Below the pieces are notes generated by a model. That model had not been told where the DNA came from and made no database searches. It saw only the letters and a list, made by a program, of their open reading frames with translations. A DNA stretch of 64,000 nt from positions 2,282,656 to 2,346,655 of the forward strand of contig NZ_CP013015.1 in assembly GCF_001577525.1 (NCBI RefSeq), written 5' to 3'. The DNA comes from Candidatus Desulfofervidus auxilii. GTDB taxonomy: Bacteria; Desulfobacterota; Desulfofervidia; Desulfofervidales; Desulfofervidaceae. Shown piece after piece: positions 29,904 to 47,208 of this stretch. The first letter of the stretch is position 1; each line of letters starts with the position of its first letter. Position numbers and translations under genes: made by a program.

Positions 29904-30459
29904 ATTGTTGGCCATATATGGTAGTCCAAGAGTGGGCGGTAACTCAGATTTGCTTTTAGACAGCTTTGTAGCTGGAGTAAAATCACCAAATTGGGAGATA
30001 ACTCGCCTTTATGTGCGTGAGCTTAATATACTTCCTTGTATAGCTTGTGGAGAGTGTGATAAAAAAGGAGAATGTCCTATAAAAGACGATATGCAAGCAA
30101 TCTATCCCTTACTTTCACAAACAGATGCAATGATAGTAGCCACCCCTGTATATTTTTATAATGTTCCTGCCCAATTAAAGGCCCTAATTGACCGTTGCCA
30201 ACTCCTTTGGTATAAAAATAAAGGGAAAAGACCTGTTTTATTCAAACCAGGCTATTTGATTACCATAGGTGGCAGACAAGAGAAAAGTATCTTTGAGGGA
30301 ATTTTTCTTACCATTAAGTCTTTTTTCTTGACTTTAGGAGTGAGACTTAAGGCTAGTTGGACTTATGCTGGTATTGACAACCTAGGCACTATCAAAAAAC
30401 ATCCTACTGCCTTAAGAGAGGTTTATCAAGCAGGTAAGAAATTATGCCAGAAGTCATAG
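29893..30459 (+). CDS. NADPH-dependent FMN reductase family flavoprotein
   Basis: Flavodoxin-like fold of about 188 residues with the FMN-binding loop YGSPRVGGNSD at the N-terminus and TPVYFYNVPAQLK, as in iron-sulfur flavoproteins and NAD(P)H oxidoreductases. A compact cysteine motif (CIACGECDKKGECP) could hold an iron-sulfur cluster, as in archaeal iron-sulfur flavoprotein. ATG 29893 is preferred over the TTG codons just before it. It overlaps both neighbours. Confidence 0.82.
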   Translation: MVYKLLAIYGSPRVGGNSDLLLDSFVAGVKSPNWEITRLYVRELNILPCIACGECDKKGECPIKDDMQAIYPLLSQTDAMIVATPVYFYNVPAQLKALIDRCQLLWYKNKGKRPVLFKPGYLITIGGRQEKSIFEGIFLTIKSFFLTLGVRLKASWTYAGIDNLGTIKKHPTALREVYQAGKKLCQKS

Positions 30460-31202
30460 TGATTGGTTCAGGTACCGGAGTACCTTCTTTAAATAGGGCA
30501 TCCCCTGCCATCTTGTTAAAGACTAAAAATACTTTTGTCCTTTTAGACAGTGGACCTGGCACCCTTAGACAATTGTTAAAGGTCAATATTACCTTTTCTC
30601 AGTTGGATTTAATTCTTTATACCCATTTCCATCCTGACCATATAACTGATTTAATCCACTTTCTTTTTGCCTCTAAATATACCCCAGGTTTTCAACGAAA
30701 AACACCTGTTTTTATCTGGGGACCGCCAGGGTTTCTGGAATTCTATAATAAATTAAAACAGGCATTTGGCTCATGGATTGAAGTATCAAAGGATAAAATT
30801 ACTCTAGCTGAAATTCCTCCAGGTTCTCTATGGGCCTATGAAGATATTTACATTCAGCCCTTTTCTACTTTTCATACTCCACATAGTCAAGGATATTGCT
30901 TGCACACAGAGGGGAAAAAGATTGCCTATACAGGTGATACTGACTTTGACCTATCTCTTGTAGATGCTGTTAAAGATGCAGATTTATTAATCTGTGAGGC
31001 TTCCTTTCCTGCTTCTCAAAAAGTGGAAGGTCACCTTACACCTACCTTAGCGGGAGAGTTGGCTAGAAAAGCAAATGCAAAGTGTCTCCTTTTAACTCAT
31101 TTTTATCCTGAATGTGATGCTATAGATATCGGAGCTGAATGCAGGCAATCTTTTACTGGCCCTCTCTATCTAGCTCAAGACTTAATGCATATAGAATTAT
31201 AA
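30444..31202 (+). CDS. Metallo-beta-lactamase-fold hydrolase (RNase Z-like)
   Basis: A 252-residue MBL-fold protein with the metal motif HFHPDH in YTHFHPDHITD, further ligands in YTGDTDFD and LTHFYP, and the GTGVPS start typical of RNase Z/ElaC relatives. It lacks a clear RNase Z exosite arm, so it may be a general MBL hydrolase rather than the tRNA 3'-processing enzyme. It ends convergent with the PAP2 gene. Confidence 0.8.
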   Translation: MPEVIVIGSGTGVPSLNRASPAILLKTKNTFVLLDSGPGTLRQLLKVNITFSQLDLILYTHFHPDHITDLIHFLFASKYTPGFQRKTPVFIWGPPGFLEFYNKLKQAFGSWIEVSKDKITLAEIPPGSLWAYEDIYIQPFSTFHTPHSQGYCLHTEGKKIAYTGDTDFDLSLVDAVKDADLLICEASFPASQKVEGHLTPTLAGELARKANAKCLLLTHFYPECDAIDIGAECRQSFTGPLYLAQDLMHIEL

Positions 31203-31210
31203 GAATACCA

Positions 31211-32251
31211 TCATGCTTTTTTTACTAACATATACATTAAGTAAACAATAATCATCCCGGCAACATCATCAATCAAGTAGTGATAGCCTAAAATCAAACT
31301 GCCTATAATAATAAAACAGAGAAAGAAAAAGGAAATCGCTATGAGCCATCTTTTGCCGAAATCACGCGAGAGTAAAAATAATTGAAGGGCATAACCTACA
31401 TGGAAACTAGGGAAGGCAGCAATAGGAGTAATGGCCTTTCCTTTCAAGAAAGTGAAGACTTCTGCTCCTTTAGTGAGAAATAAGGTTTGTTGGTTAAGAC
31501 AATGAAGATGGTATTTCCAGCTAATGAGTGCATCAGGCAAGTAATTAAAATAATCCTTAGCTACATAAATAGGTGAAACTGCTGGGAAAAGATAATGTAA
31601 CACGCCTCCTACCATCAGAGAAAGTCCGTAAACGCCAAATAATCTTTTTCTGAATGTTTCATTCCCAGAAATTAATCCAAAAAGGAAAAGCCAGTGAGCT
31701 GCTCCCCAACCAGGAACATATATAAAATCTAAAAAACGATATACCCAAGCTGGTAAGCTAGAAAAAACAGGTTGCATTAAAGACCAAAAAGGAGTTTCCC
31801 ACTTCCATAAAGGAAGATGATGATTATGAACACTCCCAAATAGCTTGAGAGTAAAATAGGTCTGGATAATGAATAAAAAAGGGACAGCCCATTTGAACCA
31901 GTTAATAATAAGATTTTTCTTCCATTGTCTGGGGAGGGGGAAAATTGTTTCTTCTTTGTATCTTTTTTTGAGAAAATATTCTATAATTGCCAGCAGGGAA
32001 ACAATAATCAGCGATCTTTTAAGCCAAGAGCTTCTTATAATGAGCTGGAACAGATAGCAATGAAGTTCCATATGTAGATAATATTGGCCTAAAAGGGTTC
32101 CCCGACTGATTTCAAAAAAGGCAAAGAGAAGGTTAGACAGAAGATATATGTAAAAAATAGATAAAATAGGCTCTTTAAACCAGTTTTCTAGTTGGATAGG
32201 TTTGGAGGAAATTAATGTCTTTGTCTCGGTAGATATTTTTAGTTTTTCCAT
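31211..32251 (-). CDS. PAP2-superfamily membrane phosphatase/phosphotransferase
   Basis: Multi-pass membrane protein of 346 residues. The C-terminal PAP2 motifs are FPSFHVGYAL (motif with catalytic histidine) and GYHYLIDDVAG. The size and the spread of helices resemble the inositolphosphotransferase (Aur1/Ipt1-like) branch. It probably acts on polyisoprenyl or phospholipid phosphates at the outer face of the inner membrane. It overlaps thiL by 13 bases. Confidence 0.75.
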   Translation of the reverse strand: MEKLKISTETKTLISSKPIQLENWFKEPILSIFYIYLLSNLLFAFFEISRGTLLGQYYLHMELHCYLFQLIIRSSWLKRSLIIVSLLAIIEYFLKKRYKEETIFPLPRQWKKNLIINWFKWAVPFLFIIQTYFTLKLFGSVHNHHLPLWKWETPFWSLMQPVFSSLPAWVYRFLDFIYVPGWGAAHWLFLFGLISGNETFRKRLFGVYGLSLMVGGVLHYLFPAVSPIYVAKDYFNYLPDALISWKYHLHCLNQQTLFLTKGAEVFTFLKGKAITPIAAFPSFHVGYALQLFLLSRDFGKRWLIAISFFFLCFIIIGSLILGYHYLIDDVAGMIIVYLMYMLVKKA

Positions 32252-33246
32252 ACCCTCTTATCCTTAAAATGGCTAAATCCTTTCTGGCTGATGTCTTCTT
32301 TTTGTCCATTAGAAATTAAATAAACTTTGTTCCCTTTAGTTATTTCACCAATAATAAAAATATCTTTTTTTAATTTTTTTTGAATATCTTTTTTTAATCC
32401 TTCTACTTCTGATGCAGGAACAGTAAACAAAAGGCAATAATCTTCTCCTCCACTTAACACCCACTGAAGGAGGTTTATCTTGAACCTTTTAGCTGCTTCC
32501 TTACAAGCAGGCGATATAGGTAATTTTTCTTGATAAATTTCTGCCCCCACTCCACTTTCCAGACAAATCCAGGTTAAGTCAGAAGCAATGCCGTCAGATA
32601 CATCTATCATGGCATGGACAAGACCTGTCTGGGCTAGATATTGACCCAAAGAAACCTCAGGTTTGGGAAAAAGTTGGGCATTAATAAGAGAGGAAAAAAT
32701 AGTGTCTTCAACATTATAACCTCTTTCTAATAAAGCAAGCCCTGCAGCTGCATTGCCTAGATAATTACTTACACAGATTATGTCTCCTACCTTAGCTTTG
32801 GACCGAAAGATTATTTGTCCTTTGGGAGCTGTTCCTAAGAGAGAAATGTTTATAACAGTCTTTTCTGATTCTACGGTATCTCCTCCAATTAAAGCTAGCT
32901 TATATTCTTGGGCAGTTTTTTTTAAACTTTGTAAGAATTCCTGTAGTTTGTTTTTAGAAAATTCTTTAGGAAAACCAATAGAAATAGTAAAACACAATGG
33001 CTTGCCTCCCATAGCAGCAATATCACTTATATTTACTGCTAGGGCCTTATAAGCAAGAGCAAAAGGTGACATCCATTCCCAACGAAAATGTGTGTTTTCT
33101 ATAAATAAATCAGTAGTCCAAAGTAAATAAACATCTCCAAATTTTAATACCGCTGCATCATCCTCTATGCCCTTTTTTATAAATGGATAAAAAGGCAAGT
33201 TTTGTGCTACTGTTTTGAAAAGTTGAATAATATCTTTTTCTTCCAT
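32239..33246 (-). CDS. thiL: Thiamine-monophosphate kinase
   Basis: ATP-dependent kinase making thiamine diphosphate, the final step of cofactor synthesis. The family markers are GIEDDAAVL near residues 25-33, WTTDLFIENTHF, GGDTVESE and SGGEDYCLLFT. Length 335 is normal. The start codon lies just a few bases after the U-tract of the sat-operon terminator and has no clear ribosome site, so expression may be leaderless or by read-through. Confidence 0.93.
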   Translation of the reverse strand: MEEKDIIQLFKTVAQNLPFYPFIKKGIEDDAAVLKFGDVYLLWTTDLFIENTHFRWEWMSPFALAYKALAVNISDIAAMGGKPLCFTISIGFPKEFSKNKLQEFLQSLKKTAQEYKLALIGGDTVESEKTVINISLLGTAPKGQIIFRSKAKVGDIICVSNYLGNAAAGLALLERGYNVEDTIFSSLINAQLFPKPEVSLGQYLAQTGLVHAMIDVSDGIASDLTWICLESGVGAEIYQEKLPISPACKEAAKRFKINLLQWVLSGGEDYCLLFTVPASEVEGLKKDIQKKLKKDIFIIGEITKGNKVYLISNGQKEDISQKGFSHFKDKRVWKN

Positions 33247-33247
33247 A

Positions 33248-33279
33248 ATAAAAAAGCCGTCTGTGGAACACAGACGGCT
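33248..33279 (-). terminator. Rho-independent terminator of the sat transcript
   Basis: AGCCGTCTGTG (33255-33265) and CACAGACGGCT (33269-33279) form a perfect 11-bp stem with a 3-nt loop. On the minus strand it is followed by TTTTTTATTATGG; the ATG is the thiL start. Confidence 0.92.
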
Positions 33280-33366
33280 GCTTTTAAAATTTAGTTTCTA
33301 TTCAGCGTCTTTCCCAGGAAATTGTTCTCTTTTCAAGAATTTCTCCTCACGTTCAAATCTTAAACA

Positions 33367-33765
33367 TTAAGGTTTTTGGTATGGACTTTTTTGAAGCTCT
33401 TCTATATCAGAAATATCTATATCAGGAACAGGTAGAGCCTCAGATTCCTTTGCTGCTGCCTCTTTTATTTCATCAGTTCGGGATATAACTGCATCTAAAG
33501 CCTCCTTACCCATAGACTTGTGTTTTGCAATTTCTTCAAAAAGCACTCTATTGAAGGCTACAGGTACGTCTGTAATTGCTCCTCTAGAATCAATTCTGGC
33601 CGCAGTAAATGCTTCCATTATTTTTTTCTCAACTTCTTCAGGAATTTCTACATTAATAGCCTTTAAAGTACCTCCAAATAAATTCACAATTTTTTCTTCA
33701 ACCTCCGTCCCCTTTATTGCATTTAGCCTTTTATCATCCAAAAGAATAACTATAAAATGAGCCAT
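33367..33765 (-). CDS. Unknown protein in the sat operon
   Basis: A 132-residue soluble, acidic protein (MAHFIVILLDDKRLNAIKG... ending LQKSPYQKP) with no membrane segment or known motif. It starts 23 bases after the sat stop and is followed by the operon terminator, so it is probably co-transcribed with ATP sulfurylase. A role linked to sulfate activation is only an inference from position. Confidence 0.7.
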   Translation of the reverse strand: MAHFIVILLDDKRLNAIKGTEVEEKIVNLFGGTLKAINVEIPEEVEKKIMEAFTAARIDSRGAITDVPVAFNRVLFEEIAKHKSMGKEALDAVISRTDEIKEAAAKESEALPVPDIDISDIEELQKSPYQKP

Positions 33766-33788
33766 TTTTTTCCTCCTAATTAAATTTT

Positions 33789-35156
33789 TTAAACCTCCAT
33801 GTCAGGTAATTCTACTTCTAGCCTTTCTTCTTTCTCTTTCACATACTTCTCATTACAAAATGGATAACCAAATTTTTTCCACCACTTAACAATCACCTTA
33901 TAAACTTCAGGCCTAAAGATTACCTTAGGTGGAAAGACACCTTCAGCTACCATACCCCTAACAAAACTGCCGCTGAATTTCTGCTTTTCTTTAGCATGGT
34001 TGCAACACCCACTGTAGGCAATTTCATTACAATGAGGACAATACCAAAACTCAGCCATATTCTGTGCCCTGATCTGCAAGCCATAAGGCACTTCATTAAG
34101 TGGTTTAGGAATACCAAAGCTGGGAATACCCTTGCCCCAGAGTATTTGGGTAGCATACATATCATAATATTCACCGACAGCGGCATGGTCTCTACCAAAC
34201 ATATGATGTGTGCAACCCATATTCTGCCTAATGATTCCATGCAACATGGACTCAATGGGATTTCCGTATCTCATATCCCACAAACAAATGGTGACTAAGT
34301 GCCTTTCTGGCTTGATATAACCTCCAAGATGCACCATCTCATGACCTTCCACGATGGCTTCGTCAGGATAATCACCTCTTCTTTTCACTCCAATAATGGC
34401 ATTTACCTGTATTCCATGACAAGGTTCTATATCTCCTGTAAAACCAGCGCTCTTCATCAACATCTCATGTCCTACGTGAGGCACATTTCTGGTTTGATGG
34501 TTTATTACTGTCCTCCATCCTCTCTTAGCATATTCTTCCCTAGACTTTCTTGGAGGATACCAGAATCTATCAAATGGTGGCATCAGTTTAGGTTCATTTA
34601 TAATGGTATATTTACCTGCCAATATTACAGGATTCATACTGCGATAAATTACCCAACCTGGATGTTTCTTATCAAATGGCTCCCTTACTACTTCTGGATT
34701 GTCTTCAGGTGTCCCAAATGTCCTGGTAGCCACTTCTTCTGGGTTAATTCTATATATTTCCTCTACATCAATGACAGCAAAGGGTTTGCCTTTAAGTCTT
34801 AAAAGCACCCTATCACCTACTTCCACCCCCAATTCCTTATAATCTTCCTCACTAATATCAAAGAGCATGGGATAAGGGAAAATCCATTCACTTAACAATC
34901 TTCTTTCTTTCAACACCCTTTCCAGCTCTGCCTGTTTCATTGAACCTTCAACTGGAGAAAAGAAACCATAACAAATAGACATTATTTCCCTATAAACATT
35001 TCTTACTGGCACACCTGTCTCATAATGTAAGGTAGGCTTAATGTCATAAACTGCCTTAGCCATTTTGGCCATCTTTTTCCCCACTTCAGGGTCTGTTACC
35101 ACTCTTTCTACAAGTCTGCCTCCATGAGGCAAAGGCGTTTCAATTAATAATCCCAT
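33789..35156 (-). CDS. sat: ATP sulfurylase (sulfate adenylyltransferase), dissimilatory type
   Basis: Forms adenosine 5'-phosphosulfate from sulfate and ATP, the first step of dissimilatory sulfate reduction. The active-site motif QTRNVPHVGHE and the GRDHAAVGEYYD segment are present. A cysteine cluster (CPHCNEIAYSGCCNH) near the C-terminus may bind zinc, as in archaeal/dissimilatory Sat. At 455 residues it has no APS-kinase extension. It has a strong own promoter and a 3' partner gene. aprBA is not in the window. Confidence 0.96.
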   Translation of the reverse strand: MGLLIETPLPHGGRLVERVVTDPEVGKKMAKMAKAVYDIKPTLHYETGVPVRNVYREIMSICYGFFSPVEGSMKQAELERVLKERRLLSEWIFPYPMLFDISEEDYKELGVEVGDRVLLRLKGKPFAVIDVEEIYRINPEEVATRTFGTPEDNPEVVREPFDKKHPGWVIYRSMNPVILAGKYTIINEPKLMPPFDRFWYPPRKSREEYAKRGWRTVINHQTRNVPHVGHEMLMKSAGFTGDIEPCHGIQVNAIIGVKRRGDYPDEAIVEGHEMVHLGGYIKPERHLVTICLWDMRYGNPIESMLHGIIRQNMGCTHHMFGRDHAAVGEYYDMYATQILWGKGIPSFGIPKPLNEVPYGLQIRAQNMAEFWYCPHCNEIAYSGCCNHAKEKQKFSGSFVRGMVAEGVFPPKVIFRPEVYKVIVKWWKKFGYPFCNEKYVKEKEERLEVELPDMEV

Positions 35157-35277
35157 TGTGCACCTCCTTTTTTATTTTTCACTTTTTATTGGAATATCAC
35201 CCTTTACGCCCCACATCCCTCCTTTCTGTTTATTTTTTACCTTATTACATGCCTAAGTCTCACTTACAACGGTTGCT

Positions 35278-35306
35278 TTTATACTATAAGTTAACTGAGT
35301 TGTCAA
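35278..35306 (-). promoter_or_regulatory. Sigma-70-type promoter of sat
   Basis: Minus-strand TTGACA (35306-35301) and TATAAA (35283-35278) with a 17-bp spacer. The predicted leader before the sat ATG is about 115 nt, with a GGAGG ribosome site near its end. Confidence 0.72.
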
Positions 35307-35433
35307 GTTTATTTTTCTTCCAACAGCTACGAAGAATCAAAACCAAAAAATAAGATAAAAATAGCTAGGGAATAAAGATAGGTCAACTTTGGAGCTAGGA
35401 CTTCGTCAAAGTAATTTTAACGGAAATCCAAAT

Positions 35434-35746
35434 GTTAAGCGCACCTGTCTGCCGACAGGCAGGATGGCTCAATGCAGAATGCAGAATGCAAATTGAAAAA
35501 TGCAAAATCGCCTTCTGTTAAATTGGAGCGTTAGCACGTTTACACGTTTGCACGTTGGAATTGGGAATTAGGAACTGGGAATTGGGAATTTCTATTTTCT
35601 GTTTTCTATTTTCTGTTTCCCGTTTCCCTTTCCTTCTTTATGCACGTTAACACGTTTACACATTGACACGTTTACATGTTAGAATTGGGAACTGGGAATT
35701 TCTGTTTTCCGTTTTCTACTTTCTTAACTGTATTTTGTAGGTTTGA
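35434..35746 (-). repeat. Composite heptamer/octamer repeat block, copy 2 (inverted)
   Basis: Reverse-complement copy of 74-362, with unit-number differences and a 20-bp GC-rich palindrome (35444-35463) that copy 1 lacks. The surrounding 35157-35989 region has no gene; apart from the sat promoter I see only AT-rich degenerate runs such as repeated catttggatt. Confidence 0.8.
35444..35463. repeat. GC-rich palindromic mini-element, copy 3 (filled site)
   Basis: CCTGTCTGCCGACAGGCAGG splits the sequence gttaagcgca/atggctc. The same sequence is continuous in the other repeat copy at 344-362. This shows a precise 20-bp gain with no duplicated target. Confidence 0.85.
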
Positions 35747-35989
35747 CCCCAATTCCACTACATTTGACTATTTCATTCCCTCACTATTTCACTACTCACT
35801 GATTTAATGTTTTGGCATTAAGACATTTGGATTTCATTTGGCATTTGGATTTTGAAATTTGGATTTTTTAGACCATATTTAAACGTTTGTCCTTTTTGTT
35901 AAATTACTTATGGCCTGACTTTGGGGCTTAAGGTAATTTGTTTTTTTTAATATTTTTTCTATAATTAAAAAAACTTTTAGGAGGTAAAA

Positions 35990-36604
35990 ATGAAATTAAT
36001 TACTCTTTATGATAATCAGGCCCGAGAAAAGTTCAAAGCAGGATGGGGTTTTTCTTGTTTGTTAAAATTAGAGGAACAAACTATTTTATTTGATACTGGT
36101 GCAGATGTAGAAACATTGGCCTATAATGCCCGCCTTTTAGAAATAGATAAAGACAAAATTTCTCATTGTTTTATTTCTCATGACCATTATGACCATACTG
36201 GAGGTATAGGATGGCTTTCTCCAAAAACAAAGGTGGTGTTTCCTAATCAATATAAAGGGGAGATATCACAAATTGATGCTATGGTTTTTGATCTTCCCAT
36301 AAAAGAACAAACAGTGATTGTGAAACCCAACAAAGTAATGCTGGTGGGTTGTTCTCATCCAGGGATTGTGCGAATGGCTAATGCGGTTTATGAAAAGTAT
36401 GGAAAGCTTAAGCTTATTATTGGTGGCTTCCATCTTTTAGGTAAAAGTGAAAGGGAAGTCTCAGAAATGGCTAAGGTTTTACTAGAAAAAACAGAACTGA
36501 TTGCCCCTTGTCATTGCACAGGAGAATCAGCCATAAAGGTATTTGAAGAAGTCTTTGGGAAACGTTTCATAGAAAATTATGCTGGAAAAATAATAGAGAT
36601 TTAA
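35990..36604 (+). CDS. Metallo-beta-lactamase-fold hydrolase (dihydropterin synthase-like subgroup)
   Basis: A 204-residue MBL protein with the motif SHDHYDHTGG, then GCSHPG and a late GGFHLL/CHCTG pair of histidines. These are typical of the subgroup annotated as 7,8-dihydropterin-6-methyl-4-(ribofuranosyl)aminobenzene phosphate synthase. It is slightly short for that family. A TAGGAGG ribosome site fits the start. It converges with the hydrogenase-like genes over a shared terminator. Confidence 0.78.
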   Translation: MKLITLYDNQAREKFKAGWGFSCLLKLEEQTILFDTGADVETLAYNARLLEIDKDKISHCFISHDHYDHTGGIGWLSPKTKVVFPNQYKGEISQIDAMVFDLPIKEQTVIVKPNKVMLVGCSHPGIVRMANAVYEKYGKLKLIIGGFHLLGKSEREVSEMAKVLLEKTELIAPCHCTGESAIKVFEEVFGKRFIENYAGKIIEI

Positions 36605-36628
36605 CCCCTCTCCCTTAAAGGAGAGGGG
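36605..36628. terminator. Hairpin terminator between convergent genes
   Basis: CCCCTCTCC (36605-36613) pairs with GGAGAGGGG (36620-36628) over a 6-nt loop, with attttaat following. It could serve both the MBL gene and the hydrogenase-like operon. Confidence 0.65.
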
Positions 36629-36633
36629 ACATT

Positions 36634-37980
36634 TTAATCTTGAAATGAGGGGTTATACGCCCTAACAACCATCTCTAAGTGGTTGATTGAATCTTGGTCA
36701 TAATTTCCTTCTTTAATGAGTGTTTGGGCAGCTTGTTTGAGGGAAAGATTCATAGCCGCTGCATTGTGAGTCAGACCTAAAATAATATTTGTCTTAGTGA
36801 TAAATCCATCTTTGTCTGTTTCACAATCATGAATTAATGTGCCAGGAACAGATTCCACACAGCCCACTCCATGTCCTGCTTTTGCTTCTACTGGCACACG
36901 CACATCTTTATCAGTAATCTCTGAATCTTTTAACAAGGCTAGTGCCTGTTCAGCATTGGCAAGCATTTCTATTAAACTGGCATATGGATAAAGCATGGTG
37001 TATTGACAAGGACGACCAAATTTATCTCTAAATTCTTCAAGCTCTGCTTGAGCTAAAGGAGTAGCCATTTTTTCACATACATTAATGCGGGCAAGGGCAC
37101 CAGTGCGATAAATGGTGGAATTATCTAATTCTAAACCAAATTCACCCCAGTTTTTTACATAACAAAATTTGCTATATGTCCAAGGTTCTATATGTTGGGC
37201 AATATAATCTGTGTATTGCTCATAACTGAAATCTTCACAACTCCCATCGGCCTTCATTAAACGCAACTTTCCATCATAGATCTCCCAAGTCCCATCATCT
37301 GTAATGGTGCCTAGGAAACCAGTATTGATCACTCCTATCTGTTCTATAACATCCATATATTTAGATAACATTTCTGTTTTGGCTAATTCCATACTAAATT
37401 TAGCAAATTCTAATAATTCTTCTGTGCCTTTCAACATTTCCTCTCTTTCACTTTCCGTCATGGGTTTGCTAAAACCACCAGGCACTGCTGCCATAGGATG
37501 AATAACTTTACCGCTAAAGTGTTCTACTAACATAGCTGCCAATTGCCTCATCTTGATTACCTTTGTTCCTAATTCAGGATTAGATTTAAATATACTGAAC
37601 ACATTTCTTGATTCAGCCTCAGGTCTTATGTAGTCAGGGGCTACTAGAAAGTAAAAATGCAGGGTTTTATTAGCTATCCAGGCTAAGTGTTGCATAAGGC
37701 GTCGCAGTTTGTCTCCGGCAGCAGGTAGTGTAGCCCCAAAGATTTTGTCAATGGCTTTATTTGAAGCTAGATGATTATCCCAAGAAGAGATACCACAAAT
37801 GCGATTAACAATCCTGGGTATTTCTTCAGCCGGACGTCCAATACAAAACTCCTCAAAACCACGCATGGAAGGAATGACTATTTTTGTTTCTGCCACGTTA
37901 CCATTATCATCTAAATCTATCATTATCTTAGCATGGCCTGTAATCCTAGTTATGGGATCAATGGTTAGAGTTTTTCCCAT
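36634..37980 (-). CDS. [NiFe]-hydrogenase large-subunit homologue lacking the NiFe ligands
   Basis: A 448-residue homologue of MvhA-type (group 3c) large subunits, aligning from TIDPITRITGHAKI to the C-terminus. The first ligand motif, normally RICGxC, is RICGIS: C62 is kept but S65 replaces the second cysteine. The C-terminal motif, normally DPCxxC, is N443-P-S-F-Q-D448. Three of four NiFe cysteines are therefore absent, and the protein ends there with TAA, not UGA. It cannot carry a normal NiFe site, so hydrogenase activity is unlikely. The scaffold is otherwise intact, and the small-subunit gene is adjacent. Confidence 0.85.
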   Translation of the reverse strand: MGKTLTIDPITRITGHAKIMIDLDDNGNVAETKIVIPSMRGFEEFCIGRPAEEIPRIVNRICGISSWDNHLASNKAIDKIFGATLPAAGDKLRRLMQHLAWIANKTLHFYFLVAPDYIRPEAESRNVFSIFKSNPELGTKVIKMRQLAAMLVEHFSGKVIHPMAAVPGGFSKPMTESEREEMLKGTEELLEFAKFSMELAKTEMLSKYMDVIEQIGVINTGFLGTITDDGTWEIYDGKLRLMKADGSCEDFSYEQYTDYIAQHIEPWTYSKFCYVKNWGEFGLELDNSTIYRTGALARINVCEKMATPLAQAELEEFRDKFGRPCQYTMLYPYASLIEMLANAEQALALLKDSEITDKDVRVPVEAKAGHGVGCVESVPGTLIHDCETDKDGFITKTNIILGLTHNAAAMNLSLKQAAQTLIKEGNYDQDSINHLEMVVRAYNPSFQD

Positions 37981-37992
37981 TTTCTACCTCCT

Positions 37993-38895
37993 TTATCTTT
38001 TAGGTAATGGTCTTAAATTATTATGTGCCCCGATAAACCGATTAAGTAAGGCCCTTCTATCTGGCACACCCTGAGGACTAAGACCAATAGAAGACCAGGC
38101 AGACATCATGTCTACCATGGGTTTTGCCCCTTTTCTTATGGGACCAAAACAGCCACGACATCCTACTCTAGCCCTGATACATCTGGGAGCGTCACTATCC
38201 CCTCGGCAACCTGCCCTGGTTACTGGACCCAGACAAATAAAACCCTGTTCCATAACACAGCGCATGGTATCCAAGGATTCTTCAGGAGAAAAAGTTAAGT
38301 TTTCAAAGAATCGCTTGGTGGTCCCACTACTGGCCTTCTTTTCCCGACGCGTGGGGCAGGTATCACACACACTCCTCTCTGGTAAAGACCAAGTTTCTCC
38401 TTTTAACAAAGCATTAATAGCCTCATTAATATTTTGAGGATGAGGTGGGCAACCTGGGATATAAATATCTACTTTAGCTATTTCATCTATGGCATATACG
38501 CGGTCTAACCAGGCTGGCACCTCTGAAGGCAAGGAAGAATAAATAGCATTTAATATCTCTTCCCTTTTCCACATATTGGCCATGGCAGGAATACCACCAT
38601 TTATGGCACAAGTGCCTAAGGCTACTAATGTTTTACATTTTTCCCTTATTTTTTGAAGAATTTCTTTTTGTTCCTCGGTCCTCACTCCTCCAGAAACAAT
38701 GGCCACATCTGCCTCAGGTATTTCTACCTGAGTGCCTTCACCAGTTTGACCATAATATTTGTGGTCTATCAAAAAAGGCATGTGAACAAATTCCAATTCT
38801 GATAATAAATCAACCAGGTTTTCTCCTATATTTAGGATACTAACCTCACACCCTGCACAGGCATTAAACCATTCTTCTACTACCTTGAGCGCCAT
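37993..38895 (-). CDS. mvhG: [NiFe]-hydrogenase small subunit (MvhG-like)
   Basis: Electron-transfer subunit of the hydrogenase-like pair, 300 residues. The proximal-cluster ligands are present: CAGCE at the N-terminus, GTCAING and GCPPHP. Further cysteines (CDTCPTRR and a C-terminal run CRGDSDAPRC...GCRGCFG) can hold two more iron-sulfur clusters. All cluster ligands look intact, unlike the partner large subunit. It starts the operon behind its own promoter and an AAAGGAGG site. mvhD or hdrABC are not adjacent. Confidence 0.85.
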   Translation of the reverse strand: MALKVVEEWFNACAGCEVSILNIGENLVDLLSELEFVHMPFLIDHKYYGQTGEGTQVEIPEADVAIVSGGVRTEEQKEILQKIREKCKTLVALGTCAINGGIPAMANMWKREEILNAIYSSLPSEVPAWLDRVYAIDEIAKVDIYIPGCPPHPQNINEAINALLKGETWSLPERSVCDTCPTRREKKASSGTTKRFFENLTFSPEESLDTMRCVMEQGFICLGPVTRAGCRGDSDAPRCIRARVGCRGCFGPIRKGAKPMVDMMSAWSSIGLSPQGVPDRRALLNRFIGAHNNLRPLPKR

Positions 38896-38942
38896 CTTTA
38901 ACCTCCTTTCCTCACAAATTCAACCTCTTTAAAATGGAGATT

Positions 38943-38971
38943 TTTATAGACTATTCTTAATGACTTGTAAA
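38943..38971 (-). promoter_or_regulatory. Promoter of the hydrogenase-like operon
   Basis: Minus-strand TTTACA (38971-38966) and TATAAA (38948-38943), spacer 17 bp. It lies only 12 bp from the end of the solo IS110 left-end repeat. Confidence 0.65.
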
Positions 38972-38983
38972 GTAATTTGATTG

Positions 38984-39093
38984 CAGGACTTTCCCAGAAT
39001 TTTTAAAAGCTTTCCGAAAAGAAAGATAAGCTCCTCAAAATAGTAATAACTTTAAAAAAAACGGTCAAATGTAGTAACTGACCTTACGCACAT
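38984..39093 (+). repeat. IS110 left-end non-coding repeat, copy B (solo)
   Basis: Reverse-complement match, with few mismatches, to 14747-14866 and 56149-56264 over about 110 bp, ending in caggacttt at the same boundary. No transposase fragment adjoins it; instead the hicA-like remnant begins on the other side. It may be a leftover of a decayed element, or a non-coding unit moved on its own. Confidence 0.75.
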
Positions 39094-39102
39094 TATAAAA
39101 AA

Positions 39103-39222
39103 TCATTTTTTAAGGGTTGCAACCATATAAAATTTGGGTGAGTGCAGTAAGGCACGAAGCTTTCCCTTCTTTTCAAGCATCTTGATAATTTTCTGGGGAG
39201 TAAGAGAAAGGAGTTTAGGCAT
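39103..39222 (-). pseudogene. hicA: Truncated HicA-like toxin remnant
   Basis: MPKLLSLTPQKIIKMLEKKG matches the start of HicA mRNA-interferase toxins, but the sequence then departs from the family and stops after 39 residues. The double-stranded-RNA-binding core with its catalytic histidine (GSH) is missing. Truncation coincides with the IS110-end repeat, so an insertion and later decay probably destroyed it. Its start overlaps the end of the hicB frame, as in hicBA pairs. Confidence 0.55.
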
Positions 39223-39446
39223 AAGCGCCTACCGTTAAAGTATATTCCAAAGTTTCTTCCTCCGTTGGTATCTCTTCACCATGCTCCTTTAAGCTCTCTA
39301 TATAACTCAATAGCTTCCTTTGCCATTTCTATCGCTTCTTCTATTGTGTCCCCATAGGTTACACAGCTAGGAAGAGAGGGAACTATCACCGTATAACCGC
39401 CCTCAGGTTCTTTTCTAAGCAGGATTCTATAGCTTAATGTTTTCAT
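39215..39446 (-). pseudogene. hicB: HicB-family antitoxin gene with a frameshift
   Basis: It begins MKTLSYRILLRKEPEGGYTV with PSLPSC and GDTIEEAIEMAKEAIELY, the usual HicB core. After ELY the frame closes at a TGA near 39276. Shifting frame at the TTATATAG run restores IESLKEHGEEIP and ...TLEYTLTVGAYA up to a stop at 39215. Loss of one TA unit (2 bp) explains this. The total is 232 bp where 234 would be open. It may be a real inactivation or a sequencing indel. Confidence 0.65.
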
Positions 39447-39465
39447 ATTATCACCTCATACAGCA

Positions 39466-39616
39466 TAGTGTATAACGGCTTGCGTGTATCTGAAGTCCGA
39501 GCCCATAGGGCGAGGATTTGGGCGAAGGCATAAGCCGAAGCCAGATACCCGCTTGTTAAGTGACTCCGATAGGGGCAAGGTGCGAAGCACCGCAGAGTTA
39601 CTGGCTTGCCCGATTA
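39466..39616 (-). repeat. attC-like site(s) 3 between the PLD-like gene and hicB
   Basis: Read on the minus strand, TTAACAAGCG-GTATCTG pairs with CAGATAC-...-GTTATAC, with two internal hairpins around a shared TTCGCCCAAAT segment. A second nested palindrome (GTTAA, AGTAACTC, GGTGC-TTC-GCACC, GAGTCACT, TTAAC) adjoins it at 39552-39616. The site begins 21 bases after the PLD-like gene and ends 24 bases before hicB, as in a gene-cassette array. Confidence 0.6.
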
Positions 39617-39636
39617 ACTATTTAATCAGAAAATGA

Positions 39637-40770
39637 TTAAACATTGTCATAAAAAATTTCATCTAGTAATCTTTTCCTATAGGAGATATTCATTATTGCT
39701 TCATAAACAATTGGCTCATGAAATCTCTTAAATCCCGATATTTTACTTCGCTCTAATTCGGTCATTACCGCTTGTTTCCAATAACTTTTTAAACTGTCGG
39801 AAAACTCGATTCTATTTTTTCTTTCAAACACTACCCAAAGAGCTTCACGGATTTTATTTCTAAAAAAATACCCATCATCTATCTGCACAACTCCATCTTT
39901 TGTGTAATCCTCCATCTCATAGTCAAGAGGCATAATTAAACCAATTTTGCCATTATATTCAGGATTCAATACATATCTTTGATTGATGGTAATCGGTATT
40001 CTGCCCCTTTTGGTAATGGACATCACAAGTCTTGGATCGTTGCTTTTAAGACTGGTAAACTCGATAAGGTCTTTAGCTAAATCAAAATAGTCATTTATCC
40101 ATTTTCTATTTGGTGCTAATTTTTTAATACACGTAACCAAACGTTGGTGAGATTCTTTATAGTTTTTTATTATGTTTTGAACACTGGTTCCAACATCATC
40201 TACCAACTTTGCCTTAATCGATGTTGACTTTGAGGGTAAACCACCTATGGTATTGTATATCTCATTATAAGAGGGTAATGAGCTAATCGATAATATATAC
40301 TCATCTAAAGCTTGAGTATTTATTGATTCTGATTTGTCCCATAGATCACGAAACCAATTTTGAAGCTCCACCACTAGTTCCTTTTCTTCAATAAAAACAC
40401 CCATTTCCACTCGTTCCGTTATTCCTTTCTCTGTAAGATTAGATGAGCCTATGAAGGCCTTACTATTTCCTATAACGACCTTTGCATGGATATCCCTGTA
40501 ATGATGGATACTCGACGATTTTTCCGAGATAAAATTTTTAATCTTTTGTCTTTCTTTTTTGTTATGAGAACATATCCATTCCTCAACATCTGTAATAAGA
40601 CGCCAATAATTAGCTAATTTAATGATTCTCTCAAAATATTTCATCCCGATATAAGGACATACTATAGATACATCTTCATTTCTAACGATTGCTGTTATGA
40701 CTTTGTCAAAAGGGGATTCGCCCCCTCTTGAGCTTTCTTTGTCATGATAAACTAATTGAATTTTATTCAT
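39637..40770 (-). CDS. Phospholipase-D-like domain protein
   Basis: A 377-residue protein. The N-terminal half carries one PLD-type motif (HAKVVIGNSKAFIGSSNLT, i.e. H-x-K...N). Single-motif members act as dimers and include nucleases such as Nuc and BfiI. The rest has no domain I can name, although a C-terminal helical region could bind DNA. It lies in the cassette array, with attC-like structures after its stop. A nuclease or defence role is possible but unproven. Confidence 0.65.
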   Translation of the reverse strand: MNKIQLVYHDKESSRGGESPFDKVITAIVRNEDVSIVCPYIGMKYFERIIKLANYWRLITDVEEWICSHNKKERQKIKNFISEKSSSIHHYRDIHAKVVIGNSKAFIGSSNLTEKGITERVEMGVFIEEKELVVELQNWFRDLWDKSESINTQALDEYILSISSLPSYNEIYNTIGGLPSKSTSIKAKLVDDVGTSVQNIIKNYKESHQRLVTCIKKLAPNRKWINDYFDLAKDLIEFTSLKSNDPRLVMSITKRGRIPITINQRYVLNPEYNGKIGLIMPLDYEMEDYTKDGVVQIDDGYFFRNKIREALWVVFERKNRIEFSDSLKSYWKQAVMTELERSKISGFKRFHEPIVYEAIMNISYRKRLLDEIFYDNV

Positions 40771-40859
40771 TGTATCCCTTTTTACATTATTGATATGTTC
40801 ATATAAAGTTATCGTCTATATTCTTTCCATTAGCCTTTTGGGCAAGCCAGTAATTTCAC

Positions 40860-41376
40860 TTATTGTTGATTAAAATTACGCTTTTTAGAATTGACTGCCT
40901 TAAATTTGCTTCCATCTATGGCCACAAGTTCTCCACTAAAAAGATCAAGCTTCTTACAAAGTAGGATAAAATCCCTGCCTACCTTCTTTATGGCCTCTTT
41001 GTTATCTTTTCTAAAATCAGCAATGGTTTTAAAATCTGGGGCCAATTTTTTGAGTAGCCACATTAGCTCTATATTTCTTTTACATTCTTTTTCTAAACAC
41101 CGACTGGAACGAATACGATTTAAGTAGCCATAAATATATAGCTTTAATAAATCAGCAGGGTTGTATGAAGGACGCCCTGTGGACTTTAACTTAGCATGTT
41201 TAAAACCAAGTCCCTCTAAATCTAAATTATCTACAAAGGCATCTATAAATTGGACAGGATTTTCTTCCTCCCCGCCTGCCTGTCAGCAGACACGGCCGTC
41301 GGGCAGGAATGTAATCATCAATGGCTTTTGGAAATAATATCGTCTGTCTTCTGGGGACGCCCTGAATATACTTCAT
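40860..41376 (-). pseudogene. IS1182-family transposase remnant split by a palindromic mini-element
   Basis: MKYIQGVPRRQTILFPKAIDDYI is followed by a 37-bp GC-rich palindrome (41271-41307) and then, in another frame, EENPVQFIDAFVDNLDLEGL and so on to GELVAIDGSKFKAVNSKKRNF before a stop. Taking out the 37 bp rejoins DDYI-EEENPV in frame, the normal family sequence. The C-terminal catalytic half is missing. The remnant sits between the PLD-like gene and the next cassette. Confidence 0.85.
41271..41307. repeat. GC-rich palindromic mini-element, copy 4 (inside a transposase gene)
   Basis: The 37-bp element (CCTGCCCGACGGCCGTG... on the minus strand, ending GGCAGGCGGG) splits codons for DDYI and EEENPV of the IS1182 transposase and shifts the frame. 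No target duplication is seen. Confidence 0.85.
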
Positions 41377-41454
41377 ATTTCCCTCTTATCATTTTTTTCT
41401 TGCCAAAATGATATCAATATTTTATTATTTTTCAAGGGTTTTCACACAATCTGA

Positions 41455-41536
41455 CGTTTTCGGCATAAGCGAACTTGCGAAGCAAGTTAGGTGGAGCGAA
41501 GGGAAACCGCTTATGCTGTATTATCTGACGTCGCAT
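41455..41536 (-). repeat. attC-like site 2
   Basis: GCATAAGCG (minus strand) pairs with CGCTTATGC around an inner ACTTGC-GAA-GCAAGT hairpin and a CCCTTCGCTCC spacer that resembles the TTCGCCC element of sites 1 and 3. It lies about 20 bases after the stop of the 202-residue gene. The terminal boxes are less canonical than those of site 1. Confidence 0.45.
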
Positions 41537-41555
41537 AGCCGAATTATCTGCAGAA

Positions 41556-42164
41556 TCAAATAGCAGCCCGCATCCGCTTTTCAAGTTCAATAAATCTATC
41601 TCGATATTGCTGAATTACTGTTCTGGCCTCTTCCAGCTTAGTCAAAACGAAGTCAGGTCTTTCATCTACCTCAGCGTGAAGTTGTGCAAGGTCGTACAGA
41701 AGTCGGGCGATGAATTCTCCGGCCACACGCTCAGTTTCCAAGAACGACTCTATAGTTCTACGCAATTCATCAGGATCTCTGAAGGAAAAGAAGCTAACAA
41801 ACCTCCCTAGAATGCCATCTCTGATTTCACTTCCTGCTGTCCGAAGCGATTCACACAACTGGAAGGCTCTGTACTGGTGCTCCCATTTGTCCATATTATT
41901 TAGCTCTATGATCTCGTTTTTAACTTGTTGAAGATTTCCTGCCCTCATTTCTCTAATAATATGACTAATATGCTGCTTAACTGCGGTCAGCAACAAATCG
42001 ACCATTTCACACGTGTCGCCAATAGATTGCCTCATTTGGTGACGTTGATCTTTAGTAAGCCTTGTCGCTTTACTTACTCCATCTATGAGCTTCTCAAACA
42101 AATTGAGAAGTCTGTCCAATTCTGCAATGCTTACTTGAAACTTTTGGGTATTTTGATTTGACAT
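41556..42164 (-). CDS. Cassette gene of unknown function (helical protein)
   Basis: A 202-residue, almost entirely helical soluble protein (MSNQNTQKFQVSIAELDRLL...) with coiled-coil-like stretches and a conserved-looking FFSFRDPDELRRTIESFLE segment. I recognise no family. It is the sole gene of its cassette: it starts 23 bases after attC-like site 1 and ends before site 2. Codon use looks more balanced in GC than the neighbouring core genes, consistent with transfer. Confidence 0.65.
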   Translation of the reverse strand: MSNQNTQKFQVSIAELDRLLNLFEKLIDGVSKATRLTKDQRHQMRQSIGDTCEMVDLLLTAVKQHISHIIREMRAGNLQQVKNEIIELNNMDKWEHQYRAFQLCESLRTAGSEIRDGILGRFVSFFSFRDPDELRRTIESFLETERVAGEFIARLLYDLAQLHAEVDERPDFVLTKLEEARTVIQQYRDRFIELEKRMRAAI

Positions 42165-42186
42165 TTTCCGATCCTCCGTATCGCGA

Positions 42187-42297
42187 TGTCAGATAACGTT
42201 CCGAGCGTATCTGAAGTTTGCGGTCGAAGACCGCAAATTTGGGCGAAGGTGCATAGCACCGAAGCCAGATCGCTCTGTTATACGCCGTTGCCTCATA
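42187..42297 (-). repeat. attC-like site 1
   Basis: On the minus strand GTATAAC...GAGCG-ATCTG pairs with CAGAT-...CGCTC-GTTATC, with unpaired bases in the arms and two inner hairpins (GGTGC-TAT-GCACC; TTTGCGGTC-TTC-GACCGCAAA) flanking TTCGCCCAAAT. The left box starts within a few bases of the DUF5615 stop codon. Its sequence is clearly related to site 3. Confidence 0.65.
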
Positions 42298-42657
42298 GTT
42301 TACCCCTACTTTCTTTAACAATACGGACAGTTTTCTCAGTCACGATTATAAAATTATTGACAAGCTTGTCAGAGTAGGACTCTAATACTCGCTGTAATAC
42401 AGCAATTTTATTCTCAGACCGTTCATCTTCTAATCGCAAAAGGATTACACCTTTGTGTGGTTTTCTCATGCGGAATACAAGTTCGCCAAAATCTTTATCA
42501 TTGGTAACCAAGATATAGTTCTCAAGATTTGCTTTCTCGATAATGCTCTCATCATCTAATCCCGAGCCTCATCATAAACAGAAAATACATCGTGATGTAA
42601 TCTTTGCGACCATCTAGCAACTGCAGGACCCGTGCATTCATCAACAAGAAAACGCAT
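42293..42657 (-). pseudogene. DUF5615 PIN-like toxin gene with a frameshift
   Basis: The start MRFLVDECTGPAVARWSQRL and YDEAR read in one frame, then stop. From LDDESIIEKANLENY the next frame continues to VTNDKDFGELVFRMRKPHKG and ends KESRGKL. One missing G in a GGG run (GCTCGGGATTAG) explains it; the intact product would read YDEARGLDDES. The family is a PIN-domain-like RNase toxin paired with a DUF433 antitoxin, which is exactly the gene before it, 2 bases away. Confidence 0.75.
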
Positions 42658-42659
42658 GT

Positions 42660-42905
42660 CTAAACCGCCTCTACCAAAGGCATAAATGTTGTGTCCTCGA
42701 GTGTTTCAGAAGCGTACAGCAAACAGGCTAAAATATCTTCCTTTGTTAATCCCTTGTATTCTTGGAGAATTTCATCAATGGTTGCTCCATGTGCTAATAG
42801 ATTCAAAATGTACTGCACTGTTAACCGCGTGCCTCTAATGACTGGTTTTCCTACCATAATTTTAGGGTTTAACACAATGCGTTCAAGTAATTGCTTTTGC
42901 TCCAT
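42660..42905 (-). CDS. DUF433 antitoxin
   Basis: An 81-residue DUF433 protein (NPKIMVGKPVIRGTRLTVQYIL, then a helix-turn-helix-like LTKEDILACLLYA). It is VapB-like, and members neutralise DUF5615 toxins by binding them and their own promoter. It starts behind a GGAGGG site and precedes the frameshifted toxin gene, so the antitoxin may now be an orphan. It forms a single cassette with the toxin. Confidence 0.88.
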   Translation of the reverse strand: MEQKQLLERIVLNPKIMVGKPVIRGTRLTVQYILNLLAHGATIDEILQEYKGLTKEDILACLLYASETLEDTTFMPLVEAV

Positions 42906-42949
42906 TTTTCCCTCCTGTTATATTGTACGTCATTCTACTATATAAAGGG

Positions 42950-43030
42950 CAATGGCGTATAACTTAAAATAATCGAATAGTTCGTTTATCCCCCAAAATG
43001 GGAGATAATCCGAACCTATTTCGTTTATCC
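42950..43030 (-). repeat. attC-like site 0 / long hairpin before the DUF433 cassette
   Basis: It contains the same GTTATACGCC box (minus strand, near 42964-42954) that flanks site 1, next to a long hairpin: CGAATAG-TTCG (42974 region) pairs with CGAACCTATTTCG, with inner TTATCcCCCA/TGGGaGATAA. It may be the first attC of the visible array. The rest of 42906-43302 has no gene apart from a palindromic mini-element and a promoter. Confidence 0.4.
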
Positions 43031-43168
43031 CTTGCTCTGGAAGAACTTAACTTTCTGCACATAAAGTAGGTTCACTTCTTTGTAATCTCATTTAAACAAT
43101 TATCATGCTCATTAAAATTTGTAAATAAATTTCTTTATATTGCATTGCATTTTTGTAAGTGTTCACCA

Positions 43169-43219
43169 CCCCGCCTGCCTGCGGGCAGGGGCAGACAGGC
43201 CTGCCTGCCGTCAGGCAGG
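43169..43219. repeat. GC-rich palindromic mini-element, copy 5
   Basis: A double unit: CCCGCCTGCCTGCGGGCAGGGG followed by CCTGCCTGCCGTCAGGCAGG-type sequence. It is intergenic, just outside the cassette region. Confidence 0.7.
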
Positions 43220-43241
43220 TATCCAAAAATCAATGTGGATT

Positions 43242-43271
43242 TTGGGATTGAGATAAAAAGTGTGTTATAAT
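43242..43271 (+). promoter_or_regulatory. Candidate promoter of the CoA-binding gene
   Basis: TTGGGA (43242-43247), 18-bp spacer, then a consensus TATAAT (43266-43271), about 30 bp before the start at 43303. Confidence 0.5.
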
Positions 43272-43302
43272 ACACCTTAAATTTTAAAAATAGGAGATAG
43301 AC

Positions 43303-43773
43303 ATGTGGCAGCGAAATATTATTATTGACCAAAAGGAATTGAAATCTTTGTTAGAAGAAACAAGGGTTATTGCCATTATTGGTTTAAAAAATGACCCTAA
43401 TGGACCTAGTTATCAAGTAGCTTCTTATTTGAAAAAGGCAGGCTATAAAATTATTCCCGTTAATCCTAAATTAACTGAAGTATTGGGAGAGAGGGCTTAC
43501 CCTAATCTAAAAACTATCACTCAACCTGTAGACATTGTAGACATCTTCCGAGCCTCACATCGGGTAAAGGTGCATACTCAAGAGGTGCTAGAACTCAGAC
43601 CAAAGGCGGCTTGGATGCAAGCGGGGATTGAAAATTGGGAAGTAGCTGAAATTTGGGCTCAGAGCGGGATTAAGGTAGTAATGAATCGCTGCATCATGGC
43701 TGAACACGCGGTTTTATTAGGCAGTGAGGAAACGCCTTTTTGTCCTGTATCTTTTCCTAAAAAGGGAGTATAA
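43303..43773 (+). CDS. CoA-binding domain protein (YccU type)
   Basis: A 156-residue single Rossmann domain of the CoA_binding_2 family: VIAIIGLKNDPNGPSYQVA at the N-terminus, then IPVNPKL and the region AAWMQAGIENWEVA, with NRCIMAEH near the end. Such proteins resemble the CoA-binding half of succinyl-CoA synthetase, but their role is poorly known. It ends directly before gpsA. Confidence 0.85.
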   Translation: MWQRNIIIDQKELKSLLEETRVIAIIGLKNDPNGPSYQVASYLKKAGYKIIPVNPKLTEVLGERAYPNLKTITQPVDIVDIFRASHRVKVHTQEVLELRPKAAWMQAGIENWEVAEIWAQSGIKVVMNRCIMAEHAVLLGSEETPFCPVSFPKKGV

Positions 43774-44775
43774 ATGTCTTCTATAGCCATTTTAGGGGCA
43801 GGAAGCTGGGGAACCGCCCTAGCCTTATTACTGGCAGAAAAAGGATTAAGGGTAAGACTTTGGGTTCATGGAAAGGAGACATACCAATCTTTAATTGAAC
43901 ACAGAGAAAACATTTATTATCTGCCAGGGGCCAAGTTATCCCCTAATATTTTCCCTACCCAATCTTTTGCGCAGGCATTAGGAGGACAACAGGATATTGT
44001 GATGGTGGTGCCTTCTCATGCTTACAGAATGGTACTTAAACAGGCCCTACCTTATCTCCAATCTGATTGCCACATTATCTCGGCTACAAAAGGAATAGAG
44101 ACTCAGACCTTATTGACTATGTCTGAAGTTACTAAACAGGTATTAAAGGGTTTTTCTTACACCTATACTGTGCTTTCAGGCCCAAGCTTTGCTAAAGAAG
44201 TAAGCCAGCATTTTCCTACCGCCGTCACAGTAGCTTCTTCCCAACAGGAAACCGCATTACATACCCAGAAATTGTTTTCCACCCCCTATTTTCGTGCTTA
44301 TACCCATCATGATGTTTTGGGAGTGGAGCTAGGAGGGGCATTAAAAAATGTCATGGCTATTGCGGCTGGGATTTGCGATGGTTTAGGACTAGGACATAAT
44401 GCCCGTGCTGCTTTGATTACTAGAGGTCTAGTAGAAATGACGCGCCTGGGGGTGAAGCTAGGGGCTGGATCAAAAACCTTTGCTGGACTTTCAGGACTAG
44501 GAGACCTGGTTTTGACTTGCACCAGTTGTTTAAGCCGAAATTACACAGTAGGCAAACGCTTAGGAAAGGGAGAGGGTATTAAAGAAATCCTTTCTTCCAT
44601 GCGGATGATAGCTGAGGGGATAAAGACTACGCATTCAGCCTATTTTCTATCCCAAAGAGAAAAAATAGAAATGCCCATCACCTCTGAGGTTTATGCCATA
44701 CTTTATCAAGGGAAATCCCCCTTAGAGGGCCTTAAAGATTTATTGAGTAGAACACTAAAAAGGGAATTTTGGTAA
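43774..44775 (+). CDS. gpsA: Glycerol-3-phosphate dehydrogenase [NAD(P)+]
   Basis: Reduces dihydroxyacetone phosphate to sn-glycerol 3-phosphate for phospholipids. The nucleotide-binding motif GAGSWGTALA is at residues 7-16, and the catalytic-lysine region GVELGGALKNVMAIAAG and the GLGDLVLTCTS segment are present. Length 333 is standard. It begins one base after the CoA-binding gene and feeds PlsY and PgsA made at the other end of the window. Confidence 0.95.
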   Translation: MSSIAILGAGSWGTALALLLAEKGLRVRLWVHGKETYQSLIEHRENIYYLPGAKLSPNIFPTQSFAQALGGQQDIVMVVPSHAYRMVLKQALPYLQSDCHIISATKGIETQTLLTMSEVTKQVLKGFSYTYTVLSGPSFAKEVSQHFPTAVTVASSQQETALHTQKLFSTPYFRAYTHHDVLGVELGGALKNVMAIAAGICDGLGLGHNARAALITRGLVEMTRLGVKLGAGSKTFAGLSGLGDLVLTCTSCLSRNYTVGKRLGKGEGIKEILSSMRMIAEGIKTTHSAYFLSQREKIEMPITSEVYAILYQGKSPLEGLKDLLSRTLKREFW

Positions 44776-44797
44776 TGAAATTTCCCAAATTTAGAAA

Positions 44798-46726: not shown

Positions 46727-46744
46727 CCTCCTAAAAAATTACCA

Positions 46745-47170: not shown

Positions 47171-47208
47171 CTTGCCTTTTCCCTTTAACTATTGTAGAAG
47201 ATTTAAGC

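Follow-up and report, generated by a model that had tools for sequence, protein, structure and literature searches.

Group 3c hydrogenases are recognized by two motifs of their large subunit, L1 (ICGxCxxxH) and L2 (AYDPCxxCATH, with C or U) (PMC6085437), and a selenocysteine (Sec)-containing cytoplasmic form, MvhA2DG, is known in Desulfobacterium autotrophicum (PMC2702500). In the Escherichia coli enzymes Hyd-1 and Hyd-2, a glutamate (E28/E14) and a pendant arginine (R509/R479) are crucial (PMC10430524). What is known of how hydrogenases turned into redox modules of another kind comes mostly from old, completed transitions in membrane complexes, namely complex I, which is without all four ligand cysteines, and the sulfane sulfur reductase MBS, which is without two (PMC7684303). 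The soluble pair described here, related to group 3c, gives a rare view of a step resembling the conversion of a hydrogenase into respiratory complex I. We found no published ligand-less group 3c pair in full-text searches of an open-access library, several of which used narrow queries, and the novelty of such a pair is not certain.

The window analyzed is a stretch of 64,000 nucleotides from Candidatus Desulfofervidus auxilii (genome G000), and both open reading frames of the pair were found in it where the original prediction had placed them. The small subunit gene (SSU; 37993..38895, reverse strand) comes first and encodes an MvhG-like protein of 300 aa with an Fe-S electron wire, assigned from 12 Fe-S cysteines and from profile matches, the MvhG match spanning most of its length. 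The large subunit gene (LSU; 36634..37980, reverse strand) lies directly downstream, starting 12 bases past the SSU end, and encodes an MvhA-like protein of 448 aa with an incomplete NiFe ligand set, assigned from the ORF list, profile matches and a fold model. Both have the ribosome-binding site AAAGGAGG, at 38902..38909 for SSU and at 37987..37994 for LSU (both on the reverse strand), the latter overlapping the SSU stop. Models of VhuA/MvhA cover most or all of the LSU length, with an E-value of 3e-123 for VhuA (NF041785) that is under the curated cut-off of that model. The PF00374 match is confined to the N-terminal 80 positions, and NuoD (PRK06075) was matched at 3e-5 only. AlphaFold modeling of LSU, which the original prediction had proposed, gave a confident fold (mean pLDDT 91.7, pTM 0.92, with values below 50 only in the final three residues) resembling MvhA of the HdrABC-MvhAGD complex (5odc_F, TM 0.93). 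The best PDB match was 9sfi_g, which ends ahead of the C-terminal ligand motif. In the tree, LSU was placed beside Sec-containing MvhA; fold and tree together establish its kinship with this subunit.

LSU had been predicted to have lost its NiFe cysteine ligands, which is correct for three of the four (codon coordinates in this paragraph are on the reverse strand). The N-terminal motif reads RICGIS and the C-terminus RAYNPSFQD followed by TAA, with no CxxC further downstream in frame, but the first N-terminal ligand, C62 (37795..37797), is kept in the alignment, and D116 is retained alongside it. The second N-terminal cysteine has become serine (codon 65, 37786..37788; C in 37/37 active relatives and also in genomes G001 and G002A). 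Codon 445, which lines up with the selenocysteine TGA, is TCA (Ser; 36646..36648), the aligned codon being TGA in G003, G012 and G002B, TAG in G002A and TAA in G001, and codon 448 (36637..36639) aligns Asp with the last ligand cysteine, just before the stop TAA. The 37 active relatives used as the reference set for LSU columns comprise 28 sequences of the closest clade and nine other group 3c proteins. Measured against them, 17 of 84 near-invariant columns are altered in the window protein, and the claim that exactly the metal ligands were lost with all else conserved does not stand. The altered columns include the proton-transfer Glu of RIEGH, now Thr (codon 14, 37939..37941), the His of ICGxCxxxH, now Asn (codon 69, 37774..37776), the pendant (canopy) Arg, now Pro (codon 379, 36844..36846; Q in G001 and G002A), and the Asp of DPUxxC, now Asn (codon 443, 36652..36654; A in G001, N in G002A), the original residue being present in 37/37 active relatives at each of these four positions. 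E14 and R379 of the LSU alignment are the equivalents of the Hyd-1/Hyd-2 glutamate and pendant arginine (PMC10430524). A stricter leave-one-out count gave 14 altered columns out of 65 invariant ones, and the same control on 28 active sequences gave no change in 20, one in six, three in G056 and six in G009. At the L1 and L2 motifs, LSU reads ICGISSWDN (C65S, H69N) and AYNPSFQD-stop. By the published motif definition (PMC6085437), and judging from sequence, the pair is not a group 3c hydrogenase, though descended from one. Sequencing errors, named in the original prediction as what could overturn it, are an unlikely cause of the ligand losses because the genome is a single contig, many separate codons are hit and in two further genomes the gene breaks off at the Sec codon.

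The small subunit was expected to keep every Fe-S ligand, and all 12 cysteines were found (13, 16, 96, 149, 177, 180, 213, 221, 230, 239, 246 and 249), conserved with 27 active relatives. Its proximal cluster has a hydrogenase-type CxxC (C13-A-G-C16) and four cysteines at hydrogenase spacing. The near-invariant SSU columns altered numbered 2/69 in G000, 4/69 in G001 and 2/69 in G002A, the LSU counterparts being 14/65, 11/65 and 6/65.

The closest relatives of LSU end in RAYDP-TGA-xSCATH, with selenocysteine as the fourth ligand. This form was found in about 45 Desulfobacterota genomes among a sample of 395, the Desulfobacterota status of the searched relatives having been deduced, partly from gene content. 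LSU is 47-68% identical to Sec-containing orthologues in Desulfobacterota, and a scan of the genome collection returned one relative. A search for orthologues with a like loss, another step suggested originally, yielded two more members of the window's family, from two other genera, that stop at the Sec codon. Within this family, G003 keeps TGA at the fourth-ligand codon. The G002A copy ends at the Sec codon with TAG, having RICGIC and RIEGH and lacking R379 and D443, and G001 ends there with TAA, having lost R379, D443, E14 and RIEGH and kept RICGVC. The window LSU has TCA at that codon and a stop three codons on. Residues at the emptied site in G000/G001/G002A are T/K/E at position 14, P/Q/Q at 379 and S/C/C at 65. 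Given these residue losses, we describe the process as graded: G003 is intact, G002A retains most of the site, G001 shows further losses and the window protein is the most degraded. The change from hydrogenase to non-hydrogenase appears recent here. The original prediction missed Sec as the ancestral fourth ligand, the retention of C62 and the second-shell catalytic losses. Lost Sec decoding was ruled out as the cause of ligand loss by the presence of tRNA-Sec in G000 and of several MvhD genes that read through TGA. Other variations were seen in MvhA homologues. In the one from G033 (L023), TGA stands in frame where the N-terminal ICGxC has its second Cys, and the C-terminal cysteines are intact, possibly placing Sec at a different ligand. 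In G009 (L008/L035) and G141 (L063), a Cys-type MvhA carries no extension beyond its terminal DPCxSCAT(H/M) and presumably needs no peptidase processing.

In the full LSU tree, G000, G001 and G002A were grouped (98/92), with G000 and G001 together inside (97/92). After removal of the catalytic columns, G000 and G001 stayed together (90/75), G002A paired with G003 (58/19) and a clade of G000, G001 and G003 was not rejected by the AU test (p 0.157). The SSU tree also joined G000 and G001 (96/96) and gave G002A no firm placement. On these trees the loss is common to at least G000 and G001. A single loss shared by all three, favored by the full LSU tree, is no longer supported without the catalytic columns, and both one and two losses are possible since the grouping of G002A vanishes without these columns and the SSU tree leaves it unplaced. 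The G002A truncation may go back to the loss common to G000 and G001 or have arisen separately. G002 has a Sec-containing MvhA, at a contig edge and adjoining a HycI peptidase, plus the copy truncated at the Sec codon (L045 and L037), either a duplicate or a binning mixture.

The original prediction had left room for a second, complete mvhA in the genome, and there is none. The sole other PF00374 protein is the large subunit of a group-1-like NiFeSe enzyme with DP-TGA-LACAVH, adjoined by hypA, hypB, hypF, hypE, hypD, hypC and the only HycI peptidase of the genome (only hypD was checked against a model, the other hyp genes being identified by reading the sequence). In G001, which is 99% complete, HypD, HycI and any other PF00374 protein were searched for and all are absent, and the mvhGA pair is kept. 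We infer that G001 is unable to make a NiFe site because it has no HypD, maturation peptidase or other hydrogenase. Methanogens have VhuA and VhuU, a short peptide, as separate proteins. A similar peptide supplying ligands in trans was ruled out by a pattern search for DPxxxCxxH, which matched only the group-1-like (periplasmic-type) enzyme in G000, gave zero matches in G001 and, as a positive control, recovered exactly the three hydrogenases of G003. Judged by sequence, the pair has very likely lost the ability to build or use a NiFe(Se) centre, and the loss of its H2 chemistry is near certain because of the ligand losses, the genes absent from G001 and the lack of a separate DPxxxCxxH peptide. 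The original view that H2 chemistry is gone while the scaffold and the Fe-S wire are kept is reinforced by its recurrence in two other genera and by the retention of the pair in G001 without HypD and peptidase.

Between G000 and G001, LSU differences amount to 0.244, 0.165 and 0.495 at codon positions 1, 2 and 3, and to 0.60 at fourfold sites. When 400 substitutions were placed at random, a mean of 13.8 stops was obtained and zero never occurred in 2000 runs. The observed LSU has no stop and its reading frame is intact in three genera, which rules out a pseudogene by stop or frameshift. A codon model gave an omega of ~0.04 for LSU of the inactive trio, a value to be read only as well under 1 because synonymous sites are at or close to saturation; the strength of selection is accordingly only bounded. 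SSU identity exceeds LSU identity by 16 points between G000 and G001, whereas among 351 active pairs this difference averaged -8.2 and never exceeded +4.1, and LSU is faster than that of G003 at codon positions 1 and 2. As the SSU/LSU identity shift is reversed relative to active pairs, constraint is judged to be partly relaxed on LSU and not on SSU. Continued selection on the pair is well supported by these comparisons. The spread of changes over codon positions, together with undamaged reading frames and the presence of ribosome-binding sites, suggests that expression and purifying selection persist.

These data bear on what the pair could be. A decaying relic of a recently lost hydrogenase, its genes awaiting deletion, would agree with the partly relaxed LSU, with emptied-site residues that differ among the three genomes and with the location of mvhD and hdr apart from mvhGA. 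It is unlikely in view of the intact frames and ribosome-binding sites, of a G000-G001 divergence lying mostly at third positions with zero stops against the 13.8 expected, and of the strong conservation of SSU with its 12/12 cysteines. That the enzyme is still a hydrogenase, taking its ligands in trans from a VhuU-like peptide or from other residues, or concealed by assembly errors, could draw on the kept C62 and on the match to 9sfi_g, which stops where a split VhuA would. Such a peptide was not found by the DPxxxCxxH search, the second-shell residues are lost too, G001 is without HypD and HycI and the pattern is seen in three genomes, making this explanation barely credible.

The emptied cavity might instead now receive a different substrate next to the proximal cluster, in the way that MBS takes sulfane sulfur and complex I quinone. 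Both complexes provide precedent through their missing ligand cysteines, and ATP sulfurylase is encoded nearby. This seems quite improbable, as no residue is commonly fixed across the three genomes, there is no membrane arm and SSU has the CxxC and four cysteines, unlike the open iron of MBS and the adjacent CC of complex I. The higher conservation of SSU than LSU, the reverse of active pairs, would also suit an SSU acting alone or with incidental help from LSU, for example by sensing redox state or by contributing its Fe-S clusters to a different complex. We hold this to be slightly less probable still, since LSU is of full length, with a fold that is intact in the model, and lies directly downstream of SSU in three genera, and since regulator or kinase genes are absent among the ORFs around the pair.

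Our preferred reading, to which we give a probability of about 0.55, is that of a former group 3c pair, NiFe-less and still selected, in which LSU would serve as scaffold and SSU as wire for an H2-independent relay on MvhD/HdrA. Its ancestor was very likely a cytoplasmic group 3c [NiFeSe] hydrogenase, MvhAG, acting as electron donor to MvhD-HdrA. LSU would have been kept as a structural partner enclosing SSU and the proximal cluster, and SSU as a wire of three Fe-S clusters that docks on a complex of the MvhD/HdrA type, for which the pair could be a relay or storage arm. This division of roles is proposed because no common residue occupies the emptied site across the three genomes, a pattern that speaks more for a scaffold than for a newly gained catalytic site common to them. 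Of the repurposing proposed originally, an electron-transfer role is plausible, whereas a quinone link is disfavored by the CxxC in place of an adjacent CC and by the lack of membrane-arm genes nearby, no such subunit being recognized among the ORFs at 28000-48000 of the window.

According to work cited in PMC6085437, formate dehydrogenase competes with MvhAG for MvhD in methanogens, so an exchange of electron-input modules there has precedent. In G000, the cognate Sec-containing MvhD is not co-located with the pair; it is an orphan gene (G000:C1:1500267-1500689) whose product is 85% identical to that of the mvhD adjoining mvhGA in G009. Orphan Sec-containing MvhD also occurs in G001, G003 and G004, at 88-95% identity, and near the orphan in all four genomes lies a homologous protein starting like MSIITLTTDFGL. 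HdrA-like proteins are abundant in all five genomes considered. The mvhGA pair of G001 faces hdrC-hdrA-hdrA-mvhD in convergent orientation, the mvhD there being a different paralogue. A relay on MvhD/HdrA is suggested by ancestry and gene content; against it, MvhD lies apart from mvhGA in the window's family and is well kept wherever found, and other complexes may be the clients. In the window, a gene for an MBL-fold protein (35990-36604, forward strand) separates the hydrogenase pair from ATP sulfurylase, and a homologue (L039:17901-18518) adjoins hdrC near the G001 mvhGA, hinting at an older shared locus. The ATP sulfurylase is followed by a DUF6955 (PF22271) protein (33367-35156, reverse strand), possibly an accessory of sulfate activation. 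Elsewhere in G000, an HdrA-like protein adjoins a CxxCH-rich protein (L096:10955-15327; G000:C1 about 2402954-2407326), resembling a putative HotSeep-1 cytochrome c oxidoreductase (PMC10553843). Both this neighborhood and the hydrogenase content of the genome agree with Ca. Desulfofervidus (HotSeep-1).

More tentatively, the family may preserve intermediate stages in which the hydrogenase-to-NuoD transition is being repeated independently by a soluble enzyme, starting from the Sec codon, and a metal-free MvhAG would feed MvhD-HdrA bifurcating complexes without H2. One family spans the range from an intact Sec enzyme to the most degraded site, which makes the order of loss directly testable in soluble proteins, as is the question of what usefulness remains without NiFe. 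For annotation, PF00374 or VhuA matches in such genomes should not be equated with H2 metabolism.

Set beside group 3c MvhAG/VhuAG, including MvhA2DG, the window pair agrees in its two genes, its fold and its Fe-S ligands, and is without three of the four metal ligands, the canopy residues, an adjacent mvhD/hdrA and a cognate maturation peptidase. The parallel drawn originally with NuoD/NuoB of complex I is apt as an analogy, both being hydrogenase-derived pairs that lost NiFe and kept their Fe-S wiring. Unlike complex I, the window pair is soluble, is nearest to group 3c in sequence, keeps C62 and has a proximal CxxC in SSU where NuoB has an adjacent CC (PMC7684303). MbsL/MbsJ of MBS (PMC7684303) likewise combine partial NiFe ligand loss with a kept scaffold, but MBS is a membrane complex that keeps two of four cysteines and has one iron of its proximal cluster without a Cys ligand, whereas the window LSU keeps one cysteine and SSU all four at the cluster. 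In the Hyl formate dehydrogenase complex (PMC6085437), HylA is likewise a soluble hydrogenase homologue whose active-site motifs are gone and whose presumed role is that of an electron relay in a soluble complex; it derives from the [FeFe]-hydrogenase HydA, and its fold and partners are unrelated to those of the window pair. At most, the pair resembles NuoD, MbsL or HylA in how it works. It belongs to none of these groups, being a soluble pair with a proximal CxxC of the hydrogenase type and with its place among group 3c sequences.
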